A stretch of 29,443 bases of DNA from a virus: the IMG/VR virus record IMGVR_UViG_3300042197_003019, positions 1 through 29,443 of that record; one strand, 5' to 3'. Numbering within the stretch: the first letter of the stretch is position 1; each line of letters starts with the position of its first letter. Below the pieces are notes generated by a model, which was not told the origin of the DNA, made no database searches, and worked only from the letters and a program-made list of their open reading frames with translations. Of this stretch, positions 2,804 to 22,245 are shown in pieces. A program made the position numbers and the translations under genes.

Positions 2804-4225
2804 TCACATGAGGTTCTTGATAGCAACTCTTCTGTAGTAGCGGTTGCTGTTAACACGGAGACGACCCAGACCCTGATCAGTACCTTCTGCAAATGGGTTT
2901 GCAACGATACCGTAACGAGTCTTGAATCCGATTTTTGGCTGGAAGGAATTCTCACCAACCGCACGTACCATCTGAAGAGGAACGTATGGGCAGTAGAAAA
3001 GACCAGCATCATAAGGCGAAGAACCCTTATAACCAACAACGTAGTACTGGTTGGATCCTTGTGCCAGACCGCTGTTATCAGCAGCCAGGTTTGCCGAATA
3101 TGGGTCAATGTAAACTCTGTACTTACCGTTGATTGTACCAGCAAAGGTGTTGCCAGTGTCATCAACGTTCAGGTTTGCATTCAGAGCAGGGGTGTAATCC
3201 AGAACACCAGCCATGGTCAGTGCTGAAGCAACGTCAGCAGAGCACATGATGATGTTGCCCTTACCGCGACGAGTTCTCTGAGCGATTCTGTTTGCATCTC
3301 TTTCGATTTGGAACAGAAGACCCTTGAACTTCTCAACGGACCAACGACCGTTGGAGTCGATGTCGAGGTCGAATACACCTGCGGTTGCAGTGTTCTCGAT
3401 TGCGCCTTGCTCAGCGATCTTGTAGATAGTACGGATAACTTCACGGTTGATCTCAGCAAGAATTTCGCTAGACAGAATGTTAGCGAGTTCTGCTTCTGCA
3501 TTCAGACCATGAATTGCCTTCAGATCCTGAGCGAGCTCGAGGGAGTATTCTGCTTTCAGTGCGCGTGACTTAGCAGTTACAGTGACTTTCTCGATTGAGA
3601 ATGCCATCTGGTTGAACTGGTCGCCAGTGCCAGAACCGAGGTTCTCAGCATCGCCAGTGTTCATGCCACCACCAACGTTATATGCCGTTGAGGTTGCAGT
3701 TCCAACTGGGTTCAGGATTGCTGGGTTGGTTCCTGACTGTGCGGTTGTACCGATACCAGCAGCAGCGTCTGCAAATGCACCGGTAAGGTTAAATCCGTCA
3801 TCTTGACCAGAGAATGCGGTATCAACTTCGTTGAAGAATGCTTCGGTTCCGCTCTGGGTGTTGTAGCGCGAACGCATTGCGAAGATCAGGCCGGTAGGAC
3901 CATTCATTGGCTGAACGCCAGCGAGATCATAAGCAACCAGGTTTGGCATCGAACGACGGATCAGCGAGATCAGTACGGGATCAAAACCAGCGGTAGGACC
4001 AGCAGCGGCTGACGAACCGGTGAAACCACCAGTGCCAGTTGAGTTGGTTGGGGATTCCATCAGGTTCATACCTGATGTAAATGCTTGCTCCTCACGGAGG
4101 AACTTTTCTTGGTTTTCGAGCAGGACGGCGGTTACAGCTCTTCTGTGCGAATCTTTGATTGGATCAAGACCCTCATAGTTCAGAAGGGGAGCCCACTTTT
4201 CCTGCAACTGTTCGGAATGGAACAT
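2804..4225 (-). CDS. gp23: Major capsid protein gp23
   Basis: Forms the hexameric lattice of the T4-type head (HK97 fold). It is 473 aa against 521 in T4. It matches T4 gp23 across its length: N-terminal EKWAPLLNYEGL, RRSMPNLVAYDLAGVQPMN, KSRALKAEYSLELAQDLKA, ILAEINREV, GKYRVYIDPY, and the C-terminal FQPKIGFKTRYGIVANPFAE. Prohead maturation by gp21 should remove the N-terminal propeptide. NLME(57)-S aligns with the T4 cleavage site FLTE(65) and fits the hydrophobic-x-E rule. AAAGG lies 9 bases before the ATG. A strong terminator follows and gp22 precedes it, as in T4. Confidence 0.98.
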   Translation of the reverse strand: MFHSEQLQEKWAPLLNYEGLDPIKDSHRRAVTAVLLENQEKFLREEQAFTSGMNLMESPTNSTGTGGFTGSSAAAGPTAGFDPVLISLIRRSMPNLVAYDLAGVQPMNGPTGLIFAMRSRYNTQSGTEAFFNEVDTAFSGQDDGFNLTGAFADAAAGIGTTAQSGTNPAILNPVGTATSTAYNVGGGMNTGDAENLGSGTGDQFNQMAFSIEKVTVTAKSRALKAEYSLELAQDLKAIHGLNAEAELANILSSEILAEINREVIRTIYKIAEQGAIENTATAGVFDLDIDSNGRWSVEKFKGLLFQIERDANRIAQRTRRGKGNIIMCSADVASALTMAGVLDYTPALNANLNVDDTGNTFAGTINGKYRVYIDPYSANLAADNSGLAQGSNQYYVVGYKGSSPYDAGLFYCPYVPLQMVRAVGENSFQPKIGFKTRYGIVANPFAEGTDQGLGRLRVNSNRYYRRVAIKNLM

Positions 4226-4270: not shown

Positions 4271-5374
4271 TCAGTTCTTAGCGACTTGCTGAAGAGTTCT
4301 GAGGTATGCAGCCATTGTGCCTGAGACTGACTCAGAAGCACTGTCTACACCTTCAGACAGAGTTTCAGTCTGTGCTTTTGGAGACTTCTGTGCTGAGAAG
4401 TATGACTCTTTCAGCATCTCCAGTTTTTCACGATATTGGGTTTCACTTTCAAACTCAACACTTTCGGAAAGTGAAGCGAGCTTTTCCTTCTGAGTAGCAG
4501 CGAGGCCCTCAGAAACTTGATCTAAGATTCCATCAGCAACCGACTCTGCGAGACGCTTGTTGAGTGAAATATTTCTTTCAATTTGCTCGTTGAGTTTTTC
4601 TTCCATTTCATCAAGTTTTTCTACCATGCTCTCTAAAACATCATATTTATCTTCAGGGATTGTTACATAATGATCTTCAAAAAGTTGCTTCATTCCACCG
4701 AGGAATGATTCTGTCATTTCGGTCTTCAGACCGTGCTCAATTGCGAGTTCGTTAGCAGAGAACCACTCATCTGAAACGTACTCAAGGTATGAATCTACAC
4801 GCTCTGCAAGTTGAAGTTTGATCTCTTCAACTTCCTCTACCAGAGCTGCAGCATATGCTTGCTCAATTTCTTCTTTGATAGTAGCAACCTTTGCATTGAT
4901 TGCTGCTTCAAAGATGGTCTTTGCCTTTTCCTTGAAACCTTCGGAGAGTTCTTCACCACCGAGGAGAGCATTGACATCTTCTTCGATGTCATACTCTTCC
5001 TTCTTCATTTTCTTCTCTTCTTTCTCCTCCTCCTCTTCTTCTTCTTCCTCTTCTTTATGCTTTGCTTCTAAGAGTTCTTCTGCTTCCTCTTCTGCCTCTT
5101 CTTTAACAGACTTCATAGGATCAGCAGACTTTGCACCTTTGTTGACAACATCTCTGACTTGCTTCAGAGTTGCACCAGGAGTCTTCAGCTTTGCTGAGTC
5201 ATCATCTGGTCTGTAGTTTTCTGGGGTAGGACCACCCAGATCTTCTACAGAACCCAGTTGTGTACCAGGATCTGCCAAACGTGGCATTGGATCCCCTGCC
5301 TTTGCAGTTGCATTTACGGCAGTTTTGGATTGCTTAGTGCCTACTTCCATTTCTTGTAAATCTCCACGAGACAT
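4271..5374 (-). CDS. gp22: Prohead scaffold/core protein gp22
   Basis: Internal scaffold that templates the prohead and is degraded by gp21. It is 367 aa, longer than T4 gp22 (269). The T4-like part starts around residue 130 (EDVNALLGGEELSEGFKEKA) and continues through VDSYLEYVSDEWFSANELA, GLKTEMTESF, and a long coiled coil with MEEKLNEQIERN. The extra N-terminal part is low-complexity and acidic, with a run of ten Glu followed by a Lys-rich patch, like a core protein. GGAGAG lies 5 bases before the ATG, and a good late box is upstream. It lies between gp21 and gp23 as in T4. Confidence 0.95.
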   Translation of the reverse strand: MSRGDLQEMEVGTKQSKTAVNATAKAGDPMPRLADPGTQLGSVEDLGGPTPENYRPDDDSAKLKTPGATLKQVRDVVNKGAKSADPMKSVKEEAEEEAEELLEAKHKEEEEEEEEEEKEEKKMKKEEYDIEEDVNALLGGEELSEGFKEKAKTIFEAAINAKVATIKEEIEQAYAAALVEEVEEIKLQLAERVDSYLEYVSDEWFSANELAIEHGLKTEMTESFLGGMKQLFEDHYVTIPEDKYDVLESMVEKLDEMEEKLNEQIERNISLNKRLAESVADGILDQVSEGLAATQKEKLASLSESVEFESETQYREKLEMLKESYFSAQKSPKAQTETLSEGVDSASESVSGTMAAYLRTLQQVAKN

Positions 5375-5430: not shown

Positions 5431-6081
5431 TTACAGATTATTCAGGAAATCATTGAACAGATTTAATTTCTGTTCATCCAATTTCTTCTGATCAACCAGC
5501 GTGTTAATTCTTTTATATGTTTTTGATGCGTAGTTTTCACGAAGAATACCACCATCCCATACCCACTCTTTTCCTTCCATAATTCCAGAAACAAATGCAT
5601 CTGGAGCTGAAGGATCTGCAACGATATCTGCTGCAGTAGCGAGCATGAAATCTTCAGCAACTTCGTTATAACCTTCTCTAGTCATTCTGATTGAACCAAC
5701 TCCACGAGAAGAAACTCCAAGTTTTACTCCTTCACCAATTAAAGACTCAGCAATTTTTCCCATAGGAGTGCTAAGAATCTTTGCCTTACCGATAAAGTTC
5801 GATCCACTTTCCTTTAATGAAACAATCTTGTGTGAAACTCTATCAAGGTTTACAGTAGGACCATCTGGGTGTCCAAGTTCTCCAAGAGCTCTGCCTTGCT
5901 GAATATGGTTTTCGTTATATCTTGAAACTTCACGGCGGAGAGTTTCCATTGGATATACACGACCATTACGGTTTTTGATATCTCCCTGAAGGAACACACC
6001 TTCAATAAAGAGAGACTTTTTACCGTTGCGTTCTTCAACGATAAATTCTACTGATTCGATTTCTTCTCTGATGAGTTTCAT
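5431..6081 (-). CDS. gp21: Prohead core protease gp21
   Basis: Serine protease inside the prohead that cleaves gp22, gp67 and the gp23 propeptide. It is 216 aa (T4: 212). Family hallmarks are GVFLQGDIKNRNGRVYP near residues 28-44, the likely catalytic His in GELGHPDGP (His71), and the likely nucleophile in LGVSSRGVG (Ser124/125). These assignments follow the T4 gp21 (MEROPS S77) pattern. No Shine-Dalgarno is evident; the ATG follows the upstream ORF's stop by one base, so coupling is likely. Gene order 67-like, small ORF, 21, 22, 23 mirrors T4. Confidence 0.96.
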   Translation of the reverse strand: MKLIREEIESVEFIVEERNGKKSLFIEGVFLQGDIKNRNGRVYPMETLRREVSRYNENHIQQGRALGELGHPDGPTVNLDRVSHKIVSLKESGSNFIGKAKILSTPMGKIAESLIGEGVKLGVSSRGVGSIRMTREGYNEVAEDFMLATAADIVADPSAPDAFVSGIMEGKEWVWDGGILRENYASKTYKRINTLVDQKKLDEQKLNLFNDFLNNL

Positions 6082-11260: not shown

Positions 11261-11485
11261 CTACCAGTCTGGATATTCCCATAAAATGTTTTGATTTTTT
11301 AACTTTCTATTTGCTAGAACTCGATTCTTTGTACACTCTTTACACTCATAAGAGTATGCGGAAACTGAAACACCTTTTCTAGTCCTATAAAAATCTTCTA
11401 TTAAATTTTTTTCTTTATGGCAAGTTCGACACTTTCTTTCAGTAAAAAATAAATGTCCAAGTCTCAACTGGCCATCTAAGTCCAT
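11261..11485 (-). CDS. Small zinc-ribbon protein overlapping the gp17 stop
   Basis: 74 aa if started at the ATG overlapping the gp17 stop (TAATG); a longer 91-aa reading would begin inside gp17 and is less likely. It carries CRTCHKEKNLIEDFYR, then YECKECTKNR, a CxxC...CxxC treble-clef or ribbon pattern like the N-terminal zinc module of phage HNH and endonuclease VII-type proteins. The HNH catalytic part is absent, so nuclease activity should not be assumed. It ends ILWEYPDW. The gp17 overlap suggests translational coupling and a possible role near packaging, DNA or RNA; that role is inference. It could also be a remnant of a homing-type nuclease. Confidence 0.78.
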   Translation of the reverse strand: MDLDGQLRLGHLFFTERKCRTCHKEKNLIEDFYRTRKGVSVSAYSYECKECTKNRVLANRKLKNQNILWEYPDW

Positions 11486-13128
11486 TATCGATACTCCCAC
11501 ATGTATGCGCGATCTCCATATTCGTCGGTAAACCATCTATCACCATCTTCATCAACAAAACTCCCTTCATCTGTTCCATCAACAATAAATCCAAAAGGAG
11601 ACATGTCTTGTTCTATCTGATTCTTCTGTTCTTCATAGAGACGCTTACGAACGTCCTGATCTGTAAGTTCTTTAAAGTAATCTTGTGCGACCAACCATGC
11701 GTAAATTACAAGACACATTGCTAAGTCATCATTACATCCTTCTTCTGCCTCAAAAGAGTTGTGCTTTTGAATAAAGGTTGTAAGTTCACTCATAATCTCA
11801 TAATCATTGAAGATTAGTTTATCTTCTTCGATCATTGTCTTTAAATTGAGGCATCCAACTTTTTTGACTGCCTTAGACATCTTAACTCCAAGTTGAGTCT
11901 TTTTGCCAGAGAATCCTTGACCTACAATTTGTCCAGCACGACCACGCATTGAACACATCAAGAGATTATTATATTCTAGATCATAATGAATAATTGATGC
12001 TACCTGATCTCCAACATCATTGACTTCACATAGAATAAACGCATCATTATAACTCTTAGCTAACTCAACAATGACGCTTGGAAAAAGCATTGGTTTGATT
12101 TCATTGTTTCGATATTTTGCAACAACTCTATGTGGAAATTGTGTAATGTCTACAACGGTAAATGCTGAATAATCGTTTCCTACGCCCCTGGCTACGTCCA
12201 CAGTGATCAAATAGTCATGCTCCTCAATAGGATCCACATATACATCTAAACCCGCGCTACGGGTCTTAGGATGGTCATAGACTAAGGTTCTGAGTTTACT
12301 TGGAGAAATAAGAGTATCAACAGATCCAAGGAATTCGCACTCAAACTCAACTTTGAACTGTTGCTCTGAAGTGTTTGCAATCGTTTGCTTTTTCCACTCA
12401 GCATCACGACCAGGAACTTCAGACCAATGAACATCAGTAAAAATATATTCATTTTTGCCTTTCTCAGCATCATGCCACATACGGTAGAAATGATTCATAC
12501 CGTGTGGAGTAGAAACAATGATTACTTTTGTACTTTTACCTGAAGTAATTGTAGGATAAACCGATGCAAAGAATGAGTCTGCGATGTGATTTGGAACGAA
12601 CGCAAATTCGTCCAAAAAGAGGATATTGAAAGACATACCACGAACCGCAGAAGCAGAAGTAGAAGCAGCCAAGATCTTACTTCCGTTCTCCAGTTCCAGA
12701 GAACCTTTATTCCAGGAGATGATTCCTTGTTGCATCCACTTTGGTAAGTTTTCATACGCTGTTTGCAAACGATCTAAGAGTTCTCTTGCTGTTGCAGCTT
12801 TGTTTGCAAGGATACCTATATTTACATTATCATTGAATACTGCGTAATGCAAAAGAAATGATACCACGGTTGTAGACTTACCAGTCTGTCGAGGCATCTT
12901 GCAAATATTAAAGCGATGTTGGTGGAAATTGTTAACTAACTTTTCCTGAAAAGGATACATTGAAAAAGGTTGAAGACCCTTATCAAGAGTCACGATCTTT
13001 ACATAATTTTTTGCAAAATATACAGGATCATTTTTACATCGAACAAATTCACGAATCTGCTCTTCAGTAAATTCAATTGGTGTATTGGCTTTCTTTAATA
13101 GTGGATTACCAAGATATACGTCACTCAT
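11485..13128 (-). CDS. gp17: Terminase large subunit gp17
   Basis: ATP-driven packaging motor and headful nuclease. It is 547 aa (T4: 610). ATPase: Walker A-like MPRQTGKST (78-86), Walker B with catalytic Glu ILFLDE (169-174), and coupling motif VSTP (205-208). RNase H-fold nuclease: acidic residues expected at D311 (TVDVARG), E368 (CEVNDVG) and D467/D468 (CNDDLAMC), matching T4 D401/E458/D542. AAAGG lies about 11 bases before the ATG, only 6 bases after the 424-aa gene. No frameshift or intron is seen, in contrast to some phages where this gene is interrupted. Confidence 0.98.
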   Translation of the reverse strand: MSDVYLGNPLLKKANTPIEFTEEQIREFVRCKNDPVYFAKNYVKIVTLDKGLQPFSMYPFQEKLVNNFHQHRFNICKMPRQTGKSTTVVSFLLHYAVFNDNVNIGILANKAATARELLDRLQTAYENLPKWMQQGIISWNKGSLELENGSKILAASTSASAVRGMSFNILFLDEFAFVPNHIADSFFASVYPTITSGKSTKVIIVSTPHGMNHFYRMWHDAEKGKNEYIFTDVHWSEVPGRDAEWKKQTIANTSEQQFKVEFECEFLGSVDTLISPSKLRTLVYDHPKTRSAGLDVYVDPIEEHDYLITVDVARGVGNDYSAFTVVDITQFPHRVVAKYRNNEIKPMLFPSVIVELAKSYNDAFILCEVNDVGDQVASIIHYDLEYNNLLMCSMRGRAGQIVGQGFSGKKTQLGVKMSKAVKKVGCLNLKTMIEEDKLIFNDYEIMSELTTFIQKHNSFEAEEGCNDDLAMCLVIYAWLVAQDYFKELTDQDVRKRLYEEQKNQIEQDMSPFGFIVDGTDEGSFVDEDGDRWFTDEYGDRAYMWEYR

Positions 13129-13134
13129 AATAAA

Positions 13135-14409
13135 TTACCTTTGTTCAATCCAGTTCAGAACCGCAAGTGCTGCTTTGTTAGTATTGGGACTTGCACAAGC
13201 AAGAGTATAAGTATCACTGATTGTTCCAATACCACTTCTACCTAACTGAAGTGCTGCCTTATCATCAATATTAATCAATGCTGCACCACCTCCAACAACA
13301 AATCCATTTAATAAAGTAGTTCCACCAGTCGTTGCAGTTTCGGTAATATTATATTGCATAAAAGAGTTTGGATCTGGATGGTCTACCCAAGTTCCACCCG
13401 TATTTGTTGCATTCTCAAGAAGTTTCCAATAGACATTTGTATTATCATTCGTTGCTGCTTGTAGTGATCTTAATAGCATCACCGCAGACAATTGTGTAGA
13501 TTTTAAACGAATACTTACAATTGGATAAAATGTATTTGCAGAAGTCATCGTTGTCCCTGTAATGGGATTTGCGATACTTACAAGAGTTCCAAGTTTTTCT
13601 GGTTCTCCTTCCTGAATCAGAGAATTGGAACCCTGATACATGTAATGAGTTCCTGCGACACCAGTTACATTTTCTATTTCAACTCTGATTGGTAAGAATG
13701 GAGTAGAACACCAAACCCTATCATTAGTGTTTGCATTATCAAAAGTATGACTTGGGATAGTTTCATTCTTCATCAACCAGGCAAATTCTACAATTCCAGC
13801 ACCATACCATTCATAATTGATGGAGATCATTTGTTGTTTTGTTGGATCTGCAGTAACTCCAGTGTATCCATTACCATCAAACTTTTCACCATTCCAATTA
13901 TCTCTGGTTACTCTGGTTTCAGTAACAATTCCTGATGTGTTACTGCGAAGTACATATGAATATGTTCCTCCATCATCCTCAAAGTATGCACCATTATTAT
14001 CGTCAAACAATCCAAATCTTCTACGAATACCTACCTGTGGAGTATCAAGACGAATTGCAAATGCAAGTGTTGCAGATCTACCAGGAATGTATCTCATTAC
14101 CTGTTTGGTTTGACGGATGACTTTACTTCCTGCAGTAGAACCTACTTGCATCACTATATTACTAGATGATACATTATGAGTTGCAGTTCCTACTCCAACT
14201 ACTCTTTCATCCCATACATCAGTCTCTTTGCCATACTGAAAGGTATTGAAGAAGACTGTTTGGAATGGAGCAACTTTGAGGCGACTGTTACCAGTAAATT
14301 GAGGTCTCCAGTCCGTCTGGTTTCCCCAATGATCTGCGATATTATAAACTTCAAATAAAGTCCTTTCTTGATTTAGAAAGTCCTGTGTTTTCTTATTCCA
14401 CTGTGCCAT
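13135..14409 (-). CDS. Virion structural protein, function unknown
   Basis: 424 aa, starting MAQWNKKTQDFLNQERTLFE. Proteins of this type are common next to gp17 in T4-like cyanophages and are called structural; I recall no defined role. The sequence looks beta-rich and jelly-roll like: RSATLAFAIRLDTPQVGIR, RFGLFDDNNGAYFEDDGGTY, ISINYEWYGAGIVEFAWLM and VWCSTPFLPIRVEIEN. This resembles concanavalin-like or capsid-decorating folds, which is inference. C-terminal region: LNGFVVGGGAALINID, AALQLGRSGIG. No coiled coil, signal peptide or membrane segment. It is packed between the 105-aa gene and gp17, 3 and 6 bases apart. Confidence 0.85.
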   Translation of the reverse strand: MAQWNKKTQDFLNQERTLFEVYNIADHWGNQTDWRPQFTGNSRLKVAPFQTVFFNTFQYGKETDVWDERVVGVGTATHNVSSSNIVMQVGSTAGSKVIRQTKQVMRYIPGRSATLAFAIRLDTPQVGIRRRFGLFDDNNGAYFEDDGGTYSYVLRSNTSGIVTETRVTRDNWNGEKFDGNGYTGVTADPTKQQMISINYEWYGAGIVEFAWLMKNETIPSHTFDNANTNDRVWCSTPFLPIRVEIENVTGVAGTHYMYQGSNSLIQEGEPEKLGTLVSIANPITGTTMTSANTFYPIVSIRLKSTQLSAVMLLRSLQAATNDNTNVYWKLLENATNTGGTWVDHPDPNSFMQYNITETATTGGTTLLNGFVVGGGAALINIDDKAALQLGRSGIGTISDTYTLACASPNTNKAALAVLNWIEQR

Positions 14410-14412
14410 GAA

Positions 14413-14730
14413 TTAAATCCAATCTAGTTTTGCTGGGTGATATCTTTTTGCGTCAGTTATTTTGACTTTATCTTCAATTGCAGGATAAATTTGATGCACA
14501 ATTGCTCCTGGATACTGATCTTGCAATTGTTCTGATAAACCATTTAAAGATGGTAAACCATTATCTGTTTCTATTTTCATTCTATATAGACTTCCTTGCC
14601 AAACCACATCCGCATAAAACTCCTCAGAAACTCTTTGCTGTTGCTGAGAGTCATTTCCAATAATTAAAGTACCGTTAAAATCTCCAGAAATGTTAACGCT
14701 TTCGGAGAGAAATTGATTAAAACTTTTCAT
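14413..14730 (-). CDS. 105-aa protein sharing a W-G-Y...YPG domain with the upstream mosaic protein
   Basis: The start chosen is the ATG that overlaps the TAA of the 593-aa gene (TAATG), giving MKSFNQFLSESVNISGD, a typical phage N-terminus; a start four codons upstream is possible but lies inside the other gene. Residues 41-84 (DVVWQGSLYRMKIETDNGLP, then LQDQYPGAIVHQIYP) match residues 449-492 of the 593-aa protein (IILTWRGKSYMAKMFFP, IQKVYPGSTVLSYEV). Both keep W-x-G-x-x-Y-x-x-K, a Pro, a helix with Q, and YPG-x-x-V. Function unknown; probably a small alpha/beta domain. The KSFNQFLSE start resembles the N-terminus of several phage proteins of unknown role. Confidence 0.8.
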   Translation of the reverse strand: MKSFNQFLSESVNISGDFNGTLIIGNDSQQQQRVSEEFYADVVWQGSLYRMKIETDNGLPSLNGLSEQLQDQYPGAIVHQIYPAIEDKVKITDAKRYHPAKLDWI

Positions 14731-16511
14731 TAGCAGTTCCAAGCTCTGAGTGATTTGTTAATGCGTGAATCTGGGTCTCTTGCGGTTTTAGAAGAAGTGA
14801 GTTTCTTTTTCATACCCTTCATTCGAGCACAAAAGCTCTTCCTGCGGGGATTTCCAACCTTCTTTGAAGGTGCTTTAAGGTCGCTTCCAGGATTCTCACG
14901 CTCATAAGACTTACGTCCTTTTTCATTGAGACCACCTGCTTTGTTCTTTCCTTCTTTACGTTGCCATGCAGCAACTTCATCAATTGTTTCTTCAGTAACT
15001 TGAATTAATGGCTCTCCAGGTTGAACCTTGGATACTTCATAAGAAAGAACGGTTGAGCCTGGATAAACTTTTTGAATTTGATCATTAACTTCCCTTCTTG
15101 TTGGCATCTTAGCGTTAGGGAAGAACATCTTTGCCATGTAAGATTTCCCACGCCAGGTCAGAATGATTGAAAGAACATTTCCATAAATTGCAGGAATTTT
15201 GATTGCCTCAGAAAACTCTTCATTAGCAGGATGAATCTGAGCAATGTCATACTTCATTTGATTTGAAGTTAATGCAATTGGTGACGAGTATAATGCCCAA
15301 TACTTTGGACCATACTTGCATTCAAAAGAATGTTCCTCTTTTTGACATTTTGGACAGTATCTTTTTTCACCAGCATTAATTGGTCCTTCCCAATCTGGCA
15401 AATCTGCATATGTATTTGATTCGGATTTATTTCCCCAATTCTTTGCACCTTTCTTGCGGCACTTAACGAGTGCTCCAGATGCATATGCACTTGGCCAAAC
15501 TTTATATCTTGACTTTACTTTATGGTAACAAGCATCCTTTTTACTTTCTTCTTCCTTTAATGATTCATCGCTTGACATGTACTCTGCAGCTGTATCAATG
15601 AAATCTGCTGCTCTAGTAATTTTTGATTGAACCCAAGCAGGAATTTGCTGATCTCCTTTTGTAATATGTTTTCTCAACATTGCAACAGCTCTTTCGATTT
15701 GATCGAACTCCACCATTGCCATGTATCCTTCATCATCCTTTATCTTTCCAGATGCGATCTCCTTATGATCTTCACTGACTGGAACACAATTTGGAACAAT
15801 TTTCTTACCTTTCTTCTTCATTCCAACTTGTTTATAACCAGACCAACATGCCTCATCAACAGGATCTTTTGTTCTTGACTTCCAAGTTCCACCATATTCT
15901 TTACTCATCTGCTTTTTAAATGCACTAACTGCTTTTTTTCTTACAGATGCTTTTGGATGATCCGATACATTTTGTAAAGGGGATCTTCCACTAGGCGCTT
16001 CACCTTGTTCCGGATCAACAAATGCTTCTGTAGCAACATTGATTGCCTTTCCACTTCTTTCTGGATTTGGATCTTTTTTATTCTTACGACGAAACGCTGC
16101 TTCCTCTTCGCTTTTCGATAAGTCTCTCTTCATTTTACTTGATCCACATTTTGGTTTTGTTGTTTGACCTGGTTGTTTTGCACAAGGTTTACCTGCATAT
16201 TTTCCACCCAACTGAACCCATCCAGGTTTTCCATCAGAAGACTTTGATTTTGAAAACCAATCATGAAGAGAACTATCTCCTGATTTATTTTCTTCTTTCA
16301 TTGCCTCTTTTTCCATTTTCTTCAAACGTGTATAATAATCTGGAATTTCATCCAGATGCTGAAGTGCAATGTCCATAGCGAGATCATGATCTTTTGTATG
16401 TTCATGTTCAATAGGTTCACCAATTTTCAGTTGCTTCTTAATGAAAGAAACATCAACACGATGCTTCTTTGCAATTTGTTCAACTGTTTTATGTGACTTC
16501 AGATTAAGCAT
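14730..16511 (-). CDS. 593-aa mosaic, basic, Cys-containing protein of unknown function
   Basis: Reads as a chain of small modules. Residues 5-68: helical HRVDVSFIKKQLKIG... HTKDHDLAMDIALQHLDEIP, DYYTRLKKME (DUF5661-like, from memory). 83-150: GKPGWVQLGGKYAGKPCAKQ, with PKCGSSK. 221-244: ACWSGYKQVGMKKKG, NCVP. 264-312: helical. 325-362: DACYHKVKSRYKVWPSAYAS, ALVKCRKKGAKNWG. 385-399: CPKCQ...C. 445-505: W-G-Y...YPG domain shared with the downstream gene. 511-593: AAWQRKEGKNKAGGLN, RRKSFCARMKGMKKKLTSSK, ending INKSLRAWNC (DUF6321-like, from memory). Very Lys-rich with paired Cys, suggesting nucleic-acid contact; this is inference. A late-like box abuts the ATG and no Shine-Dalgarno is visible. 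Confidence 0.85.
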   Translation of the reverse strand: MLNLKSHKTVEQIAKKHRVDVSFIKKQLKIGEPIEHEHTKDHDLAMDIALQHLDEIPDYYTRLKKMEKEAMKEENKSGDSSLHDWFSKSKSSDGKPGWVQLGGKYAGKPCAKQPGQTTKPKCGSSKMKRDLSKSEEEAAFRRKNKKDPNPERSGKAINVATEAFVDPEQGEAPSGRSPLQNVSDHPKASVRKKAVSAFKKQMSKEYGGTWKSRTKDPVDEACWSGYKQVGMKKKGKKIVPNCVPVSEDHKEIASGKIKDDEGYMAMVEFDQIERAVAMLRKHITKGDQQIPAWVQSKITRAADFIDTAAEYMSSDESLKEEESKKDACYHKVKSRYKVWPSAYASGALVKCRKKGAKNWGNKSESNTYADLPDWEGPINAGEKRYCPKCQKEEHSFECKYGPKYWALYSSPIALTSNQMKYDIAQIHPANEEFSEAIKIPAIYGNVLSIILTWRGKSYMAKMFFPNAKMPTRREVNDQIQKVYPGSTVLSYEVSKVQPGEPLIQVTEETIDEVAAWQRKEGKNKAGGLNEKGRKSYERENPGSDLKAPSKKVGNPRRKSFCARMKGMKKKLTSSKTARDPDSRINKSLRAWNC

Positions 16512-16572: not shown

Positions 16573-16854
16573 TCACTTCTTGAGTTCTTCAATTTCTGCC
16601 TTAAGCGCAGCGATCATTTCGCCTTGCTCACGTACAGCAGCGATCAGAACACCAACGAGACCATTGTAGTTAACGGTCTTATGGTCATCTCCTGTTTGTA
16701 CCAGTTGTGGCAGATGCTCTTCAATTTGCTGAGCGATGACACCGCAGGTTTCAGCTCCGCTTGATTTCCAAGTGAAGTGTACACCTTCCAGTTTTCCAAC
16801 CAGTTCGGATGCATTTTCAATTGGGCGGATGTTATCCTTCAGTTTTCTATCCGA
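16573..16854 (-). other. Peptidase S74 / intramolecular chaperone domain
   Basis: C-terminal domain of the giant fibre starting at SDRKLKDNI. The spacing of Ser and Lys (S-x4-K) matches the autoproteolytic dyad known from endosialidase-type chaperones. It ends in a short coiled coil (IAALKAEIEELKK). Confidence 0.88.
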
Positions 16855-19800
16855 AGTTGAGTTGAAGTCAGAAGCGGTAACAATTCCAGAAACGGAAACA
16901 CCACCAACACTCAGAGTATTGGAACTTGCATCGAAGGTTAAGTCTCCATCGGTTGACGATGTTACCATCGTACCTGAGGTGAGACTTGTCAATACAACTC
17001 TTTGTACTCCTGAAGCAGCACTCAGAGTAGAACCAGTATTGGTCAGGTTAGCACCATCACCGTAGAAGGAAGCTGCTGTGATCGCAAGACCAACAGCATT
17101 GATTCCACCTGAAGTGATTGTTACACCAGAACCAATAGTAGCGGACTGAGTTACCGACAGAGTGGTATTTGCATTAACCGCACCAGTGAATGTCGAAACA
17201 CCACTATTGCTGATTAACAGCGAATTGAAGGTGTTTGGAGCATAACCCAGAGCAGTCTCAAGAGTTGCAACGGTTGTTGCGTCAACAGAGTTGATGCCAA
17301 CCAGTGCTGAAGAATTAACCCACTCAGAACCGTTATACTGAAGAAGTTGACCGTTCGAAGAAGATGTTAAAGTAACATCTGAAAGGTCATTCAGAGAGTT
17401 AACTGAACCAACACCAGCAGAGAGTGTATTATACGCATAGAATTCAACAACGTCTCCAGCAAATGCAGCTTCGCTCAGAGTAACTCCAGTACCGTTGTTT
17501 GCAGTGAACTCGCTAGGAGCAAGTTTAACACCATTGATGAATACATCAAGGAATCCAACAGTGTAATTAACAGTAAATGAAGTTTGACCTGAAGTTGCAG
17601 TTTGAACAGAAGTCGTTCTTAATGTTGGCAGAGAATCTGAAATAGATGCCCATGAAACACCAGTTCCAACATTCTTCAGAACATAACCAGATGTACCAGT
17701 GCTATTGTTAACATCTGTCAGAGTACCATTGATATCAATATTGTTGAATGTTGAAATACCAGTGGTTGCATTGACATTACCAGTCAGATTACCTGTTACA
17801 TTACCAGTTACATTACCAGTTACGTTTCCTGAGAAACCACCAGTTGCAGTTACAACACCAGAAGCAACGACACTCGTTAAGGAGATGTTATTATCGAGGT
17901 TAATTGTTACTGCATTTGAAGAAGCAGATGAAGTCAGGTTTGTACCACCAGAAATTAACAGACTCTCACTTAAGAAGTTAATGGTTTCTGAACCAGAATC
18001 TCCAGTGACGGTCAGAGCAGCGCCAATTGCAGCTGTTCCAGCAGCAGTTAAACGACCTCTTGCATCAACAGTAAATGTTGGAATTGCTGTTGTTGAACCA
18101 TAAGAACCAGCGGTAACGCCAGTTGTCGAAAGTCCAAGAGTAACAGCAGCTGTTTCTGTACCAGAGTTGTTAACTACGATATCCGAAGATCCGGAGTCAG
18201 CAACGGTAGCAACATAGTTACCTGTGGTATCAGTTCCAAGAGCAACGCTATTTGGTTGAATGGTAACTGCTAAACCAACGTTTCCAGTACCATCAAAGGA
18301 AACTGCAGCGGAAGCTACGTCGCCAGTGATTTGGAAAGTTCTAGCGGTCTGCAGAGCAGTTGCTGTGTCAGCATTACCAGTTAAGTTTCCTGTTACGTTA
18401 CCTGTGACGGATCCAATGAATCCACCAGTTGCGGTTACGATACCAGAAGCGTTAACGTTAGCAATCGACAGAGAGTTTGCACTCAGAACTTCAGTACCAT
18501 TGATCTTATAAACTTTACCTGAAGCGAGATCAAAGTTTTCGCTCGACTTCAGCGAAGCTGAAGTGTTATTCCAGGTAATAGTCTTACGGATATTAGCAGA
18601 ACCGATTCCGATTCCAGCACCATCAAGAACAGCATTTGAAGCTGCAGTGCTTGCAACACCAACAACAAAGTCTGCTAATTCAATAGTAGTTGAATTTACA
18701 AAGAACTGCGAACCATCAACGTACAGATCACCCTTAATTCTGACCAGACCAGTGTTGTCTCCAACAGCAGCAGGGTCAATCGTTAATTCTGCAGGACCAG
18801 TAATTGTATTGGTGTTGATTCCAATCGCTTCACCAGAAGCACCAGTTACAAATTGAGCAGCGGTGATGATACCAGATGCTTTAACACTTGTTAAATCAAT
18901 TGCTGGATCGAGGTTAACGGTTACAGAATTACCTGAAGCAGAAGAATTCAGGTTTGTACCACCAGAAATAGTTAATGTTTCGGTTAAGAGATTGATGTTC
19001 TCAGAACCAGAATCACCAGCAACAGTCAGAGCAGTGCCTACAGCAGCAACACCAGCAGCAGTTAAACGACCTCTTGAGTCAACAGTAAATGTTGGAATTT
19101 GAGTCGTTGAACCATATGAACCTGCAGTAACTCCTGTGGTCGAAAGACCGAGAGTGACAGCAGCATTTTCTGAACCGGAGTTAGAAACAACAATATCTGA
19201 TGAACCAGCATCAGCAACAGTAGCAACATAGTTACCAGTTGTGTCTGTTCCGAGAGCGACCGAGTTAGGTTGAATTGTAGCTGCGATAGAAACGTTTCCA
19301 GTACCATCGAAGGATACTGCAGCCGAAGCTACATCACCAGTGAGTTGGAAAGTTCTAGCGGTTTGCAGAGCAGTCGCAGTGCTTGAGTTACCAGTTACGT
19401 CGCCAGTTACATTACCAGTTAAGTTTCCTGAGAAACCACTAGTAGCGGTAGCAACACCTGTAACTACAACACCAGATGCATTTGTATCGAATGCAGCAGC
19501 ATTAACTTCGCCAGTTAAGTTTCCTGAGAAACCACTAGTAGCAGTTATAACACCAGAAGCAACAACACTTGTCAATGAAATGTCGTTATCAAGGTTAATT
19601 GTTACTGAATTGGATGCAGCCGATGAAGTCAGGTTTGTGCCACCAGAGATGGTTAAAGTTTCACTTAAAAGATTAATGTTTTCAGAACCAGAATCGCCAG
19701 CAACTGTTAAAGCAGTGCCAACAGAAGCTGTACCAGCAGCAGTTAAACGACCTCTTGAGTCAACGGTAAATGTTGGGATCTGAGTTGATGAACCGTATGA

Positions 19801-22245
19801 ACCTGCAGTAACTCCTGTGGTTGAGAGTCCCAATGTAACTGCAGCGGTTTCTGAACCAGAGTTAGAAACAACGATATCCGATGAACCAGCATCAGCAACA
19901 GTAGCAACATAGTTACCAGTAGTATCACTACCAAGAGCAACACTATTTGGTTGAATTGTAGCTGCGATAGAAACGTTTCCAGTACCATCGAAGGATACTG
20001 CAGCCGAAGCTACATCACCAGTGATTTGGAAAGTTCTGGCGGTCTGAAGAGCAGTTGCTGTATCAGCGTTACCAGTTACATTACCAGTTAAGTTTCCTGA
20101 GAAACCACTAGTAGCAGTTACAACACCAGAAGCAACAACACTTGTCAATGAAATGTTTGGATCAAGATCAATTGTTACTGCGTTTGCAGCAGCTGAAGAA
20201 GTCAGGTTTGTACCACCATTAATTGCTAAGTTTTCGCTTAAGAAGTTAATGGTTTCAGAACCAGAGTCTCCAGTGACTGTCAGAGCAGCACCAATTGCAG
20301 CAGTTCCAGCAGCGGTCAGACGACCTTTTGCATCAACAGTAAATGTTGGGATTGCTGTAGATGAACCATAAGAACCTGTAGTAACTCCTGTATTAGCAAG
20401 AGTAATTGCTAAACCAACGTTTCCTGAGCCATTAAATGATACTGCAGCAGAAGATGCATCACCAGTAACTTGGAAGTCTCTAGCGGTTTGTAATGTAGTT
20501 GCTGTGTCAGCATTGCCCGTTACATTGCCAGTTAAGTTTCCTGAGAAACCACTAGTAGCGGTAGCAACACCAGTTACAACCACACCAGATGCGTTAGTAT
20601 CGAATGCAGCAGCGTTGACTTCGCCAGTTAAGTTACCAGTTACATTACCAGTTACGTTTCCTGTTAAAGGACCGCTAAATGAAGTAGAAGTAGTAACACC
20701 AGTTACAACCACGCCAGATGCATTAGTATCAAATGCAGCAGCATTAACTTCACCAGTTAAGTTACCAGTTACATTACCAGTTACGTTACCAGTTACGTTT
20801 CCTGAGAAACCATTCGTTGCTGTTACGACACCAGAAGCATTGACATTAGTAATAGAAAGTGAAGTTGCACTTAGAACTTCAGTTCCATTGATTTTATATG
20901 ATTTACCTGAGGCAAGATTGAAGTTTTCGCTTGACTTCAGAGCTGTATTAGCATTATCATAAGTTAAAGTATTGTCTGGACCAATCTTGATACCTGCTCC
21001 ATCGGCAAGTGCATCGGTTGTTGCTGTAGAAGCAATACCTACAATAAAGTCAGCAAGTTCAATTGTTGTCGAATTAATGACAGTTTGAACACCGTCAACA
21101 AACAGGTCACCCTTAATTCTTACAGCACCAGTATTATCACCAACACCTGCTGGGTCAATGATGATTTCTGCAGGACCAGAAATTGTGCTTGTGTTAATTC
21201 CGATCGCTTGACCTGAAGCACCAGTTACAAACTGAGCAGCGGTAATAATACCAGATGCCTTGACACTGGTGAGATCGATCGAAGGATCGAGGTTAATTGT
21301 AACTCCATTTGCAGCTGCAGAAGAAGTCAGGTTTGTTCCACCAGAAATCGTCAGAGTTTCTGATAAAAGATCAATATTCTCAGAACCAGAATCGCCAGCA
21401 ACTGTTAAAGCAGTACCAACCGAAGCTGTACCAGCAGCAGTTAAGCGACCTTTTGCATCAACAGTAAATGTTGGGATCTGAGTCGATGAACCGTAGGAAC
21501 CTGGGGTTACTGCAGTATTAACAAGATCAACTGTAATTGTATTTGATGCAGCAGATGTAGCAACGCTACCAGCAGCACCAACGATTGACAGAGTTTCTGT
21601 CAGAAGGTTGATGTTTTCAGAACCAGAGTTTCCAGCAACTGTTAAAGCAGTACCAACCGAAGCTGTACCTACCGAAGTTACACGACCTCTTGAGTCAACT
21701 GTAATTGTAGGAATTGCTGTTGTTGAACCATAGGAACCTGCAACAACACCAGTTGTTGTAAGACCAATAGTAACCGCAGCAGTTTCTGTACCAGAGTTGT
21801 TGACTACAATATCAGATGAACCAGCATCAGCAACAGTAGCAACATAATTGCCAGTTGTATCAGTACCAAGAGCAACTGAGTTTGGTTGAATTGTAGCAGC
21901 AATCGAAACGTTTCCAGTACCATCAAAAGATACCGCAGCCGAAGCTACATCACCAGTGAGTTGGAAAGTTCTAGCAGTTTGTAAAGCAGTTGCTGTATCA
22001 GCATTACCAGTTACGTTTCCTGTTAAAGGACCTTCAAATCTGCCTTCACCAGAAGTTTTAAAGTTTGCAGCAGTAATAATGCCAGTGATTCTTGCATCAC
22101 CAACGACTACGAATTTTGAATCGGGAGTTGCTGTACCAACACCGACCTTTGTTGAAGCTGAGTTGGAAGTAATTCCAATATATCTCGAAGATGCGTCCAG
22201 CTCCAAGAACGACGCAAATTGCGAGAGTTCTCTATTAAATGCCAT
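16573..22245 (-). CDS. Giant repeat-rich tail fibre with C-terminal S74 autoprotease/chaperone
   Basis: 1890 aa, likely a trimeric fibre for host adsorption. The N-terminus (MAFNRELSQFASFLELDASS, VGVGTATPDSKFVVVGDARI) looks like a virion-attachment start. The shaft is made of duplicated modules: five copies starting TAR(T/D)FQ-x-TGD, many FTVD(S/A)(R/K)GRLTAAG turns, two long AQFVTGASG...NVNASG blocks, and TGNV tetrapeptide runs. Near residues 1600-1700 is NYTVGFLDVFINGVKLAP. The final 93 residues are an intramolecular chaperone/peptidase S74 domain: SDRKLK from residue 1798 supplies the Ser-Lys pair (Ser1798, Lys1803), then GVIAQQIEEHLPQLV, VNYNGLVGVLIAAVREQ and a coiled coil. Self-cleavage before Ser1798 is expected after trimerisation. 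AGGAG lies three bases before the ATG. No frameshift is seen. Confidence 0.95.
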   Translation of the reverse strand: MAFNRELSQFASFLELDASSRYIGITSNSASTKVGVGTATPDSKFVVVGDARITGIITAANFKTSGEGRFEGPLTGNVTGNADTATALQTARTFQLTGDVASAAVSFDGTGNVSIAATIQPNSVALGTDTTGNYVATVADAGSSDIVVNNSGTETAAVTIGLTTTGVVAGSYGSTTAIPTITVDSRGRVTSVGTASVGTALTVAGNSGSENINLLTETLSIVGAAGSVATSAASNTITVDLVNTAVTPGSYGSSTQIPTFTVDAKGRLTAAGTASVGTALTVAGDSGSENIDLLSETLTISGGTNLTSSAAANGVTINLDPSIDLTSVKASGIITAAQFVTGASGQAIGINTSTISGPAEIIIDPAGVGDNTGAVRIKGDLFVDGVQTVINSTTIELADFIVGIASTATTDALADGAGIKIGPDNTLTYDNANTALKSSENFNLASGKSYKINGTEVLSATSLSITNVNASGVVTATNGFSGNVTGNVTGNVTGNLTGEVNAAAFDTNASGVVVTGVTTSTSFSGPLTGNVTGNVTGNLTGEVNAAAFDTNASGVVVTGVATATSGFSGNLTGNVTGNADTATTLQTARDFQVTGDASSAAVSFNGSGNVGLAITLANTGVTTGSYGSSTAIPTFTVDAKGRLTAAGTAAIGAALTVTGDSGSETINFLSENLAINGGTNLTSSAAANAVTIDLDPNISLTSVVASGVVTATSGFSGNLTGNVTGNADTATALQTARTFQITGDVASAAVSFDGTGNVSIAATIQPNSVALGSDTTGNYVATVADAGSSDIVVSNSGSETAAVTLGLSTTGVTAGSYGSSTQIPTFTVDSRGRLTAAGTASVGTALTVAGDSGSENINLLSETLTISGGTNLTSSAASNSVTINLDNDISLTSVVASGVITATSGFSGNLTGEVNAAAFDTNASGVVVTGVATATSGFSGNLTGNVTGDVTGNSSTATALQTARTFQLTGDVASAAVSFDGTGNVSIAATIQPNSVALGTDTTGNYVATVADAGSSDIVVSNSGSENAAVTLGLSTTGVTAGSYGSTTQIPTFTVDSRGRLTAAGVAAVGTALTVAGDSGSENINLLTETLTISGGTNLNSSASGNSVTVNLDPAIDLTSVKASGIITAAQFVTGASGEAIGINTNTITGPAELTIDPAAVGDNTGLVRIKGDLYVDGSQFFVNSTTIELADFVVGVASTAASNAVLDGAGIGIGSANIRKTITWNNTSASLKSSENFDLASGKVYKINGTEVLSANSLSIANVNASGIVTATGGFIGSVTGNVTGNLTGNADTATALQTARTFQITGDVASAAVSFDGTGNVGLAVTIQPNSVALGTDTTGNYVATVADSGSSDIVVNNSGTETAAVTLGLSTTGVTAGSYGSTTAIPTFTVDARGRLTAAGTAAIGAALTVTGDSGSETINFLSESLLISGGTNLTSSASSNAVTINLDNNISLTSVVASGVVTATGGFSGNVTGNVTGNVTGNLTGNVNATTGISTFNNIDINGTLTDVNNSTGTSGYVLKNVGTGVSWASISDSLPTLRTTSVQTATSGQTSFTVNYTVGFLDVFINGVKLAPSEFTANNGTGVTLSEAAFAGDVVEFYAYNTLSAGVGSVNSLNDLSDVTLTSSSNGQLLQYNGSEWVNSSALVGINSVDATTVATLETALGYAPNTFNSLLISNSGVSTFTGAVNANTTLSVTQSATIGSGVTITSGGINAVGLAITAASFYGDGANLTNTGSTLSAASGVQRVVLTSLTSGTMVTSSTDGDLTFDASSNTLSVGGVSVSGIVTASDFNSTSDRKLKDNIRPIENASELVGKLEGVHFTWKSSGAETCGVIAQQIEEHLPQLVQTGDDHKTVNYNGLVGVLIAAVREQGEMIAALKAEIEELKK
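17783..17830 (-). repeat. Four tandem 12-base units encoding TGNV-type tetrapeptides
   Basis: Plus-strand units are gtcagattacct, gttacattacca twice, and gttacgtttcct, encoding GNVTGNVTGNVTGN-type sequence on the minus strand. Two middle units are identical in DNA. Confidence 0.9.
18433..18880 (-). repeat. Long fibre module, copy 2 (AQFVTGASG...NVNASG)
   Basis: Encodes AQFVTGASGEAIGINT, VRIKGDLYVDG, NSTTIELADFVVG, LKSSENFDLASGK, YKINGTEVLSA and NVNASG. It matches the block at 20826-21258 with substitutions concentrated in two short stretches. Bounds are approximate. Confidence 0.85.
20627..20662 (-). repeat. Three tandem 12-base units (TGNV repeat)
   Basis: Plus-strand units are gttaagttacca, gttacattacca and gttacgtttcct, the same unit family as at 17783 and 20756 in the fibre gene. 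Confidence 0.88.
20756..20803 (-). repeat. Four tandem 12-base units (TGNV repeat)
   Basis: Plus-strand units are gttaagttacca, gttacattacca, gttacgttacca and gttacgtttcct. First and last units are the same as in the 20627 array, which has one unit fewer. Confidence 0.9.
20826..21258 (-). repeat. Long fibre module, copy 1 (AQFVTGASG...NVNASG)
   Basis: Encodes AQFVTGASGQAIGINT, VRIKGDLFVDG, NSTTIELADFIVG, LKSSENFNLASGK, YKINGTEVLSA and NVNASG. It is the partner of the block at 18433-18880, about 2.4 kb apart in direct orientation. Confidence 0.85.

Follow-up and report, generated by a model that had tools for sequence, protein, structure and literature searches.

Among the internal proteins of tailed phage heads, the best described are IPI-IPIII and Alt of phage T4. 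Each is the product of a separate gene, carries a capsid-targeting sequence (CTS), and loses one N-terminal propeptide (Alt also a C-terminal one) to the prohead protease gp21. IPII and IPIII begin MKTYQEFIAE/A in the GenBank record, where a slash marks here, and throughout, the position of a cut or candidate cut. The gp21 protease is reported to cut after L/I-x-E, and Asp at this position to block processing of the T4 CTS (PMC9026906). In phiKZ and SPN3US, head and ejection proteins are cut several times by the Glu-directed proteases gp175/gp245, with an A-x-E motif in SPN3US, and internal proteins are ejected into the host, but the extra cuts fall in long propeptides that are mostly lost (PMC10052503). 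A third strategy is that of the polyvalent proteins of phages and plasmids, in which 2-15 domains are joined in mosaic order in one polypeptide and delivered with the DNA (Iyer et al. 2017, PMC5512222). These carry recognisable enzymatic domains, some carry their own peptidase, and cyanophages are not mentioned in the text of that work that was searched.

Described here is a gene of a T4-like cyanophage, one of the ocean viruses that infect cyanobacteria, which encodes a chain of small, shuffled protein modules, many of whose joints carry a motif that resembles the gp21 site. Literature searches for a cyanophage head polyprotein, for DUF6321, or for a CTS in cyanophages found none, although subscription papers were not covered.

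Organization of the locus

The window, the whole stretch of DNA analysed (29,443 nucleotides of IMG/VR record IMGVR_UViG_3300042197_003019), is a fragment of a T4-like cyanophage in which the gp17 terminase, gp21 protease, gp22 scaffold and gp23 capsid protein are present. The terminase and capsid protein were recognised from sequence rather than by a profile search. The gene of interest encodes P0001, of 593 residues, and lies between a 1890-aa fibre-like ORF (16573-22245) and, after two further genes, the large terminase (11485-13128). The features are as follows.

14730..16511 (-). Modular ORF P0001, 593 aa, stop TAA at 14732-14730; PHROG 727, E=1e-152
16293..16511 (-). Module A, DUF5661 (residues 1-73), helical by prediction, pLDDT >=90 over most of residues 11-70; candidate cut after MKE73; Pfam PF18905, E=2.6e-14
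16023..16292 (-). Module B (residues 74-163), GKPC..PKC, net +10; 150 domain hits in 108 proteins
15852..16022 (-). Dispensable cassette (residues 164-220) ending VDE220/A; absent by alignment in a close relative, L081
15771..15851 (-). Module C (residues 221-247), ACW..NCVP, predicted beta hairpin; ends VSE247/
15552..15770 (-). Module G (residues 248-320), acidic predicted helical hairpin, no Cys in P0001; ends LKE320/
15396..15551 (-). Module D (residues 321-372), ACYHKVKSRYKVWPSAYASGALVKC, related to DUF5872 (Pfam PF19197, E=0.003, sub-threshold)
15207..15395 (-). Module H (residues 373-435), YCPKC...C knuckle; ends FSE435/A
14991..15206 (-). Module E (residues 436-507), predicted beta-beta-alpha-beta (pLDDT about 72-89), paralogue of the next gene; PHROG 1742 match, and one HMM finds both; ends VTE507/
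14733..14975 (-). Module F, DUF6321 (residues 513-593), follows IDE512/; net +15; Pfam PF19846, E=2.5e-22
14413..14730 (-). Downstream gene, overlapping P0001 by 1 nt (TAATG); CTS-like N-terminus MKSFNQFLSE/S plus an E-type module
5431..6081 (-). gp21-type prohead protease, the proposed processing enzyme; Pfam Peptidase_S77, E=2.5e-33
4271..5374 (-). gp22 scaffold
2804..4225 (-). gp23 major capsid protein with LME57/S, aligned by eye to LTE/A of phage S-CREM2

A sequence-only reading had described a 593-aa protein assembled from at least six Cys/Lys-rich modules, several with paired Cys, and this observation holds, with the addition that the ORF is on the minus strand; the plus strand of this frame is full of stops. 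The borders proposed in that reading (residues 75, 215, 320, 380, 440 and 508) fall on module borders. Two refinements are that residues 75-215 are module B plus a separate cassette of about 52 aa (163-214) missing in a >90% identical relative, and that residues 215-320 are two modules, C and G. P0001 is a chain of at least eight small modules, five with conserved Cys. The Cys groups named in that reading are present at residues 110/122, 222/242, 328/351, 386/389/398 and 561/593. The one-base overlap with the next gene, read from the coordinates, is also found between gp029 and gp030 of phage S-SCSM1 (NC_070962).

Pfam recognises only the two ends of P0001, DUF6321 at 79.7 bits against a gathering score of 28.5 and DUF5661 at 53.8 against 27, and finds in P0001 none of the known effector, peptidase or nucleic-acid-processing domains of polyvalent proteins. 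Module D falls short of DUF5872, at 18.6 bits against 27.5, but a sister variant in the related contig L009 passes at 29.5 (E=1.2e-6). A relationship of module B to DUF5872 was considered, but Pfam showed none. PHROG 727, PHROG 1742, and the Pfam families DUF6321, DUF5661, DUF5872, DUF192 and DUF3008 hold this protein, its neighbour or single modules of the chains. All are listed as unknown function or uncharacterised, with no architecture or processing described in the entries.

The sequence-only reading had also called the product strongly basic. This is right overall (pI 9.5, net +34) but mixed by module, as B, C, D, E and F are basic and A, G and H are acidic. The same reading considered contact with DNA or RNA, or condensation of DNA in the head. 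A DNA-condensing or DNA-binding protein acting as one unit, in the head or during late infection, would fit the Lys-rich modules and the detection of relatives in virions. However, three of the eight modules are acidic, composition varies among relatives, no solved-structure relative or confident PDB fold match was found, and condensation would not need shuffled, individually bounded modules. DNA contact or condensation remains possible but is conjectural, and this explanation is considered quite unlikely.

Two other ORFs of the window lie nearby. A 424-aa gene between the downstream CTS-like gene and terL (13135-14409) closely resembles S-SZBM1_190, which was detected in virions, and a 91-aa endonuclease VII-like ORF (11261-11536; PHROG 4723, E=3e-32) lies just downstream of terL.

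Variation in module order

A tblastn search finds the family in 532 phage records, of which only 3 cover 80% of the query in one place. Profile HMMs for eight modules were built using 159 related viral contigs. Among 162 full-length proteins, from 78 to 765 aa, there are 42 module orders, and modules also occur alone. Cys number per module is nearly fixed, with exactly two in 87/87 B, 52/52 C and 50/50 D, two in 118/121 F, and three in 24/25 H. Other chains contain further modules, including a DUF192 domain (E=2e-27) and a DUF3008 domain. The latter is also a stand-alone 69-aa protein labelled 'virion protein' in S-SCSM1 (gp279, L171:41626-41835, where L171 is the S-SCSM1 contig), which ends KKRTFKEFLEYIE, a CTS-like sequence at the C-terminus.

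Large indels between relatives can also start and end at Glu. Three relatives with the same architecture differ by insertions and deletions that run from one Glu joint to another: VATE/...VDE/, KISE/...MKE/ and VTE/...IDE/. Across 143 distinct indels between relatives, 40 have Glu at both ends, against 2.7 expected for random placement. The indels, like the junctions between modules, share ancestry and are not independent, and the linkers are Glu-rich, so the excess is partly expected.

A protease-like motif at the module joints

After thinning of similar joints, 181 of 242 have an [LIVMF]-x-E motif within -10..+2 of the module start, whereas 1000 shuffles of the same upstream 20-mers give 68.5±6.7, with a maximum of 89. 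The motif forms a positional peak, at 10.2% per residue at -6..-1 against about 1-2.5% over most other positions; a second peak at +12..+17 is a conserved LNE inside module F. It occurs whatever module precedes, as for C after B (7/7), after G (8/8) and after D (53/56), and for E after C (46/46). Many joints nonetheless miss the consensus, as only 19/45 joints of F after E, 0/9 of G after B, and about half of the H joints fit. In P0001, sites are found at E73, E220, E247, E320, E435, E507 and E512.

The gp22 scaffold of the window, the classic gp21 substrate, served as a positive control and has 10 [LIVMF]xE[AGS] sites against 3.5 in shuffles. P0001 on its own shows no excess (2 against 2.0), so the argument rests on the family and on position. 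A hydrophobic residue at P3 of a Glu is not unusual in itself (35% in other ORFs). P3 enrichment over all Glu is not significant against general ORFs (0.37 against 0.35, p=0.2) and is not relied upon, although it is significant against other Glu of the same proteins (0.21, p=1e-14).

Alternatively, the chain may stay uncut, as a flexible multidomain virion protein in the manner of the co-injected polyvalent proteins, with the Glu-rich, disordered linkers acting as spacers. Virion detections of relatives would fit an uncut protein too, and no cleavage product has been seen. The ordered motif is, however, peaked at module starts beyond what linker composition gives, CTS-like sequences lie inside joints, and stand-alone modules carry the cut-site-like sequence at the same place. 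This alternative is considered unlikely, though the least so of the rivals.

CTS-like N-termini on stand-alone modules

Modules E, F, G and H also occur alone behind an N-terminal MK(T/S)(F/Y)xxFxxE/, like the T4 CTS. In the gene downstream of P0001, which carries a module-E relative, 31 of 33 relatives match a strict version of the pattern. Short proteins with F, G or H modules begin the same way: MKNYKEFKELAE/AAWTRKEG, MNNKKTFSEFMIE/VAAWQRKEG, MKTFKEMKQICE/NHVAV and MKNYKEIKQLAE/EAKKK. The second compares with IDE/VAAWQRKEG in P0001. Similar sequences occur inside chains at joints, such as KKSFQDFLDE/GQKCW, KRKTFSQFVE/GC, and LTFQQFQE/KCW in gp114 of phage Syn9 (DQ149023). P0001 itself begins MLNLKSHKTVEQIAKKH and has no N-terminal CTS.

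In S-CREM2 (OR473000), a strict CTS pattern at annotated starts picks three proteins, gp15, gp136 and gp154, and all three are in the virion list. The pattern was written after seeing examples, so this is supportive only. The NMNAT/cytidylyltransferase-like enzymes repeatedly reported in cyanophage virions also start with CTS-like sequences, suggesting how they enter the head: MKNFSSFLTE/A in S-CREM2 gp154 (contig L160, 20609-21469), MKSFLQFLKE/A in S-SCSM1 gp281 (L171:38819-40048) and MRFRQFIIE/A in S-SZBM1_140 (contig L164, 20389-21477), all three detected in virions. Short sequences that mimic the N-arm of the capsid protein (GGFTGSSAAEGPTAGYDPLM) are found in the non-capsid proteins S-SCSM1 gp275 (L171:43121-43306) and S-CREM2 gp160 (at its N-terminus; L160:24343-25236), perhaps as another capsid-association tag. 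The mimic in gp160 (GFTG..GPxAGYDP) was sought in the other module proteins and not found.

Phages that lack the protease provide a natural contrast. In eight complete phage genomes without a Peptidase_S77 hit (Pelagibacter, Roseobacter, Microcystis, Planktothrix, and T7-like cyano- and pelagiphages), the modules are single proteins of 47-93 aa with no CTS and no xxE joint. Four cyanophage isolates with chains or CTS-bearing forms (Syn9, S-CREM2, S-SCSM1 and S-SZBM1) all encode S77. The contrast is confounded with phage lineage and is not a full census. Two of the bare DUF6321 genes in T7-like phages (contigs L174, 1159-1413, and L178, 1174-1413) lie next to the capsid gene (P-SCSP1o) or between scaffold and capsid genes (HTVC131P).

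Predicted structure

AlphaFold2 with 35 sequences, aligned over order-consistent spans, gives a mean pLDDT of 63.9 and a pTM of 0.25, with ordered islands (A, C, G, D, E and F) joined by disordered linkers like beads on a string. Candidate sites E320, E435, E507 and E512 lie in segments with pLDDT below 50, and E73 and E220 lie within three residues of one, but E247 lies far from any low-confidence linker. A constant architecture in all relatives without stand-alone modules, or a single-domain predicted fold, had been named beforehand as evidence against modularity, and neither is found. No solved structure matches by sequence and no PDB fold match reaches E<0.1 (best 0.31), so no function is drawn from fold. 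The best viral fold match is the S-SCSM1 'Virion protein' (E=1e-27).

Detection of relatives in virions

Published virion mass spectrometry lists modular relatives, rather than P0001 itself. In S-CREM2, Table 3 of PMC10665884 lists ORF160 (7 unique peptides, 13.1% coverage) and ORF137 (4 peptides, only 4.1% coverage), in which modules B-C-D and E-F, respectively, are found. In S-SCSM1, the protein at the same locus, gp029, with modules B-D-C-H-E-F in the same order, is annotated 'virion protein'. This evidence rests on the label of the record, in which 47 entries are so labelled against 45 reported as detected (PMC9602691), and 14 of unknown function against 13, so that the label tracks the mass spectrometry closely but not exactly. 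S-SZBM1 is mixed, as gp139, with one C module, was detected, but gp192 (CTS plus DUF6321) and gp194 were not among the listed proteins.

Mass spectrometry of whole virions does not separate head from tail, and P0001 follows fibre genes, such that a fibre- or tail-associated protein can be considered. The prohead-protease-like joints, the downstream gene with a T4-like capsid-targeting N-terminus and a shared module, and the stand-alone F genes beside capsid or scaffold genes in T7-like phages speak against this, and it is thought the least likely of the explanations.

Interpretation

The favoured explanation, held with moderate confidence, is that P0001 is a precursor polyprotein for internal head proteins. 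In this view, it enters the prohead core, and gp21 cuts the disordered joints after (L/I/V/M/F)xE to release small, mostly basic, Cys-containing modules that stay with the packaged DNA and are probably ejected with it, like T4 IPI-III. Modules would be gained, lost and reordered as units bounded by these joints. The analysis demonstrates the modular chain and its shuffling, the joint motif, the protease gene, the CTS-like N-termini on stand-alone modules, and the published detection of modular relatives in virions. Entry of P0001 into the core, cleavage itself, location in the head rather than the tail, ejection, and the function of each module, DNA binding included, are inferences. The sequence-only interpretation is thus supported in part: modularity, stand-alone homologues and late-gene, virion-related status are confirmed, but the joint motif, the CTS-like N-termini and the existing virion detections were missed.

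The system would work like the T4 internal proteins, with which it shares a T4-like phage encoding an S77 protease, a hydrophobic-x-Glu motif, neighbouring and stand-alone genes with an MK(T/S)(F/Y)xxFxxE/A or /S N-terminus, small and often basic products, and relatives found in virions. It differs in that up to eight or more modules are chained and shuffled and in that P0001 lacks the N-terminal CTS; no sequence homology of the modules to IPI-III was found, in the absence of a formal test. Compared with phiKZ and SPN3US, the proposed cuts would separate folded modules that are retained. Compared with the polyvalent proteins, the modules are tiny and the protease would be that of the head.

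A bolder reading, about as likely as not, is that this is a bacteriophage structural polyprotein: a fast-evolving cassette array, delimited by prohead-protease sites, from which the head protease frees several different retained small proteins that are ejected with the genome, giving T4-like cyanophages a quickly changed set of early effectors. Virion enzymes such as the NMNAT-like protein would use the same capsid-targeting route.

The family occurs in over 500 deposited phage records, mainly of T4-like cyanophages, and is annotated as unknown. If the favoured explanation holds, a large class of unknown cyanophage proteins gains a location and a maturation route, and a short sequence rule, the CTS-like N-terminus and xxE joints, predicts which phage proteins travel in the head. 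It would also represent a polyprotein strategy in a tailed phage that uses the maturation protease, and provide a testable route by which the virion-borne metabolic enzymes reported in cyanophages enter the particle. In short, one gene would probably supply a changeable cargo of small proteins packed inside the virus particle.
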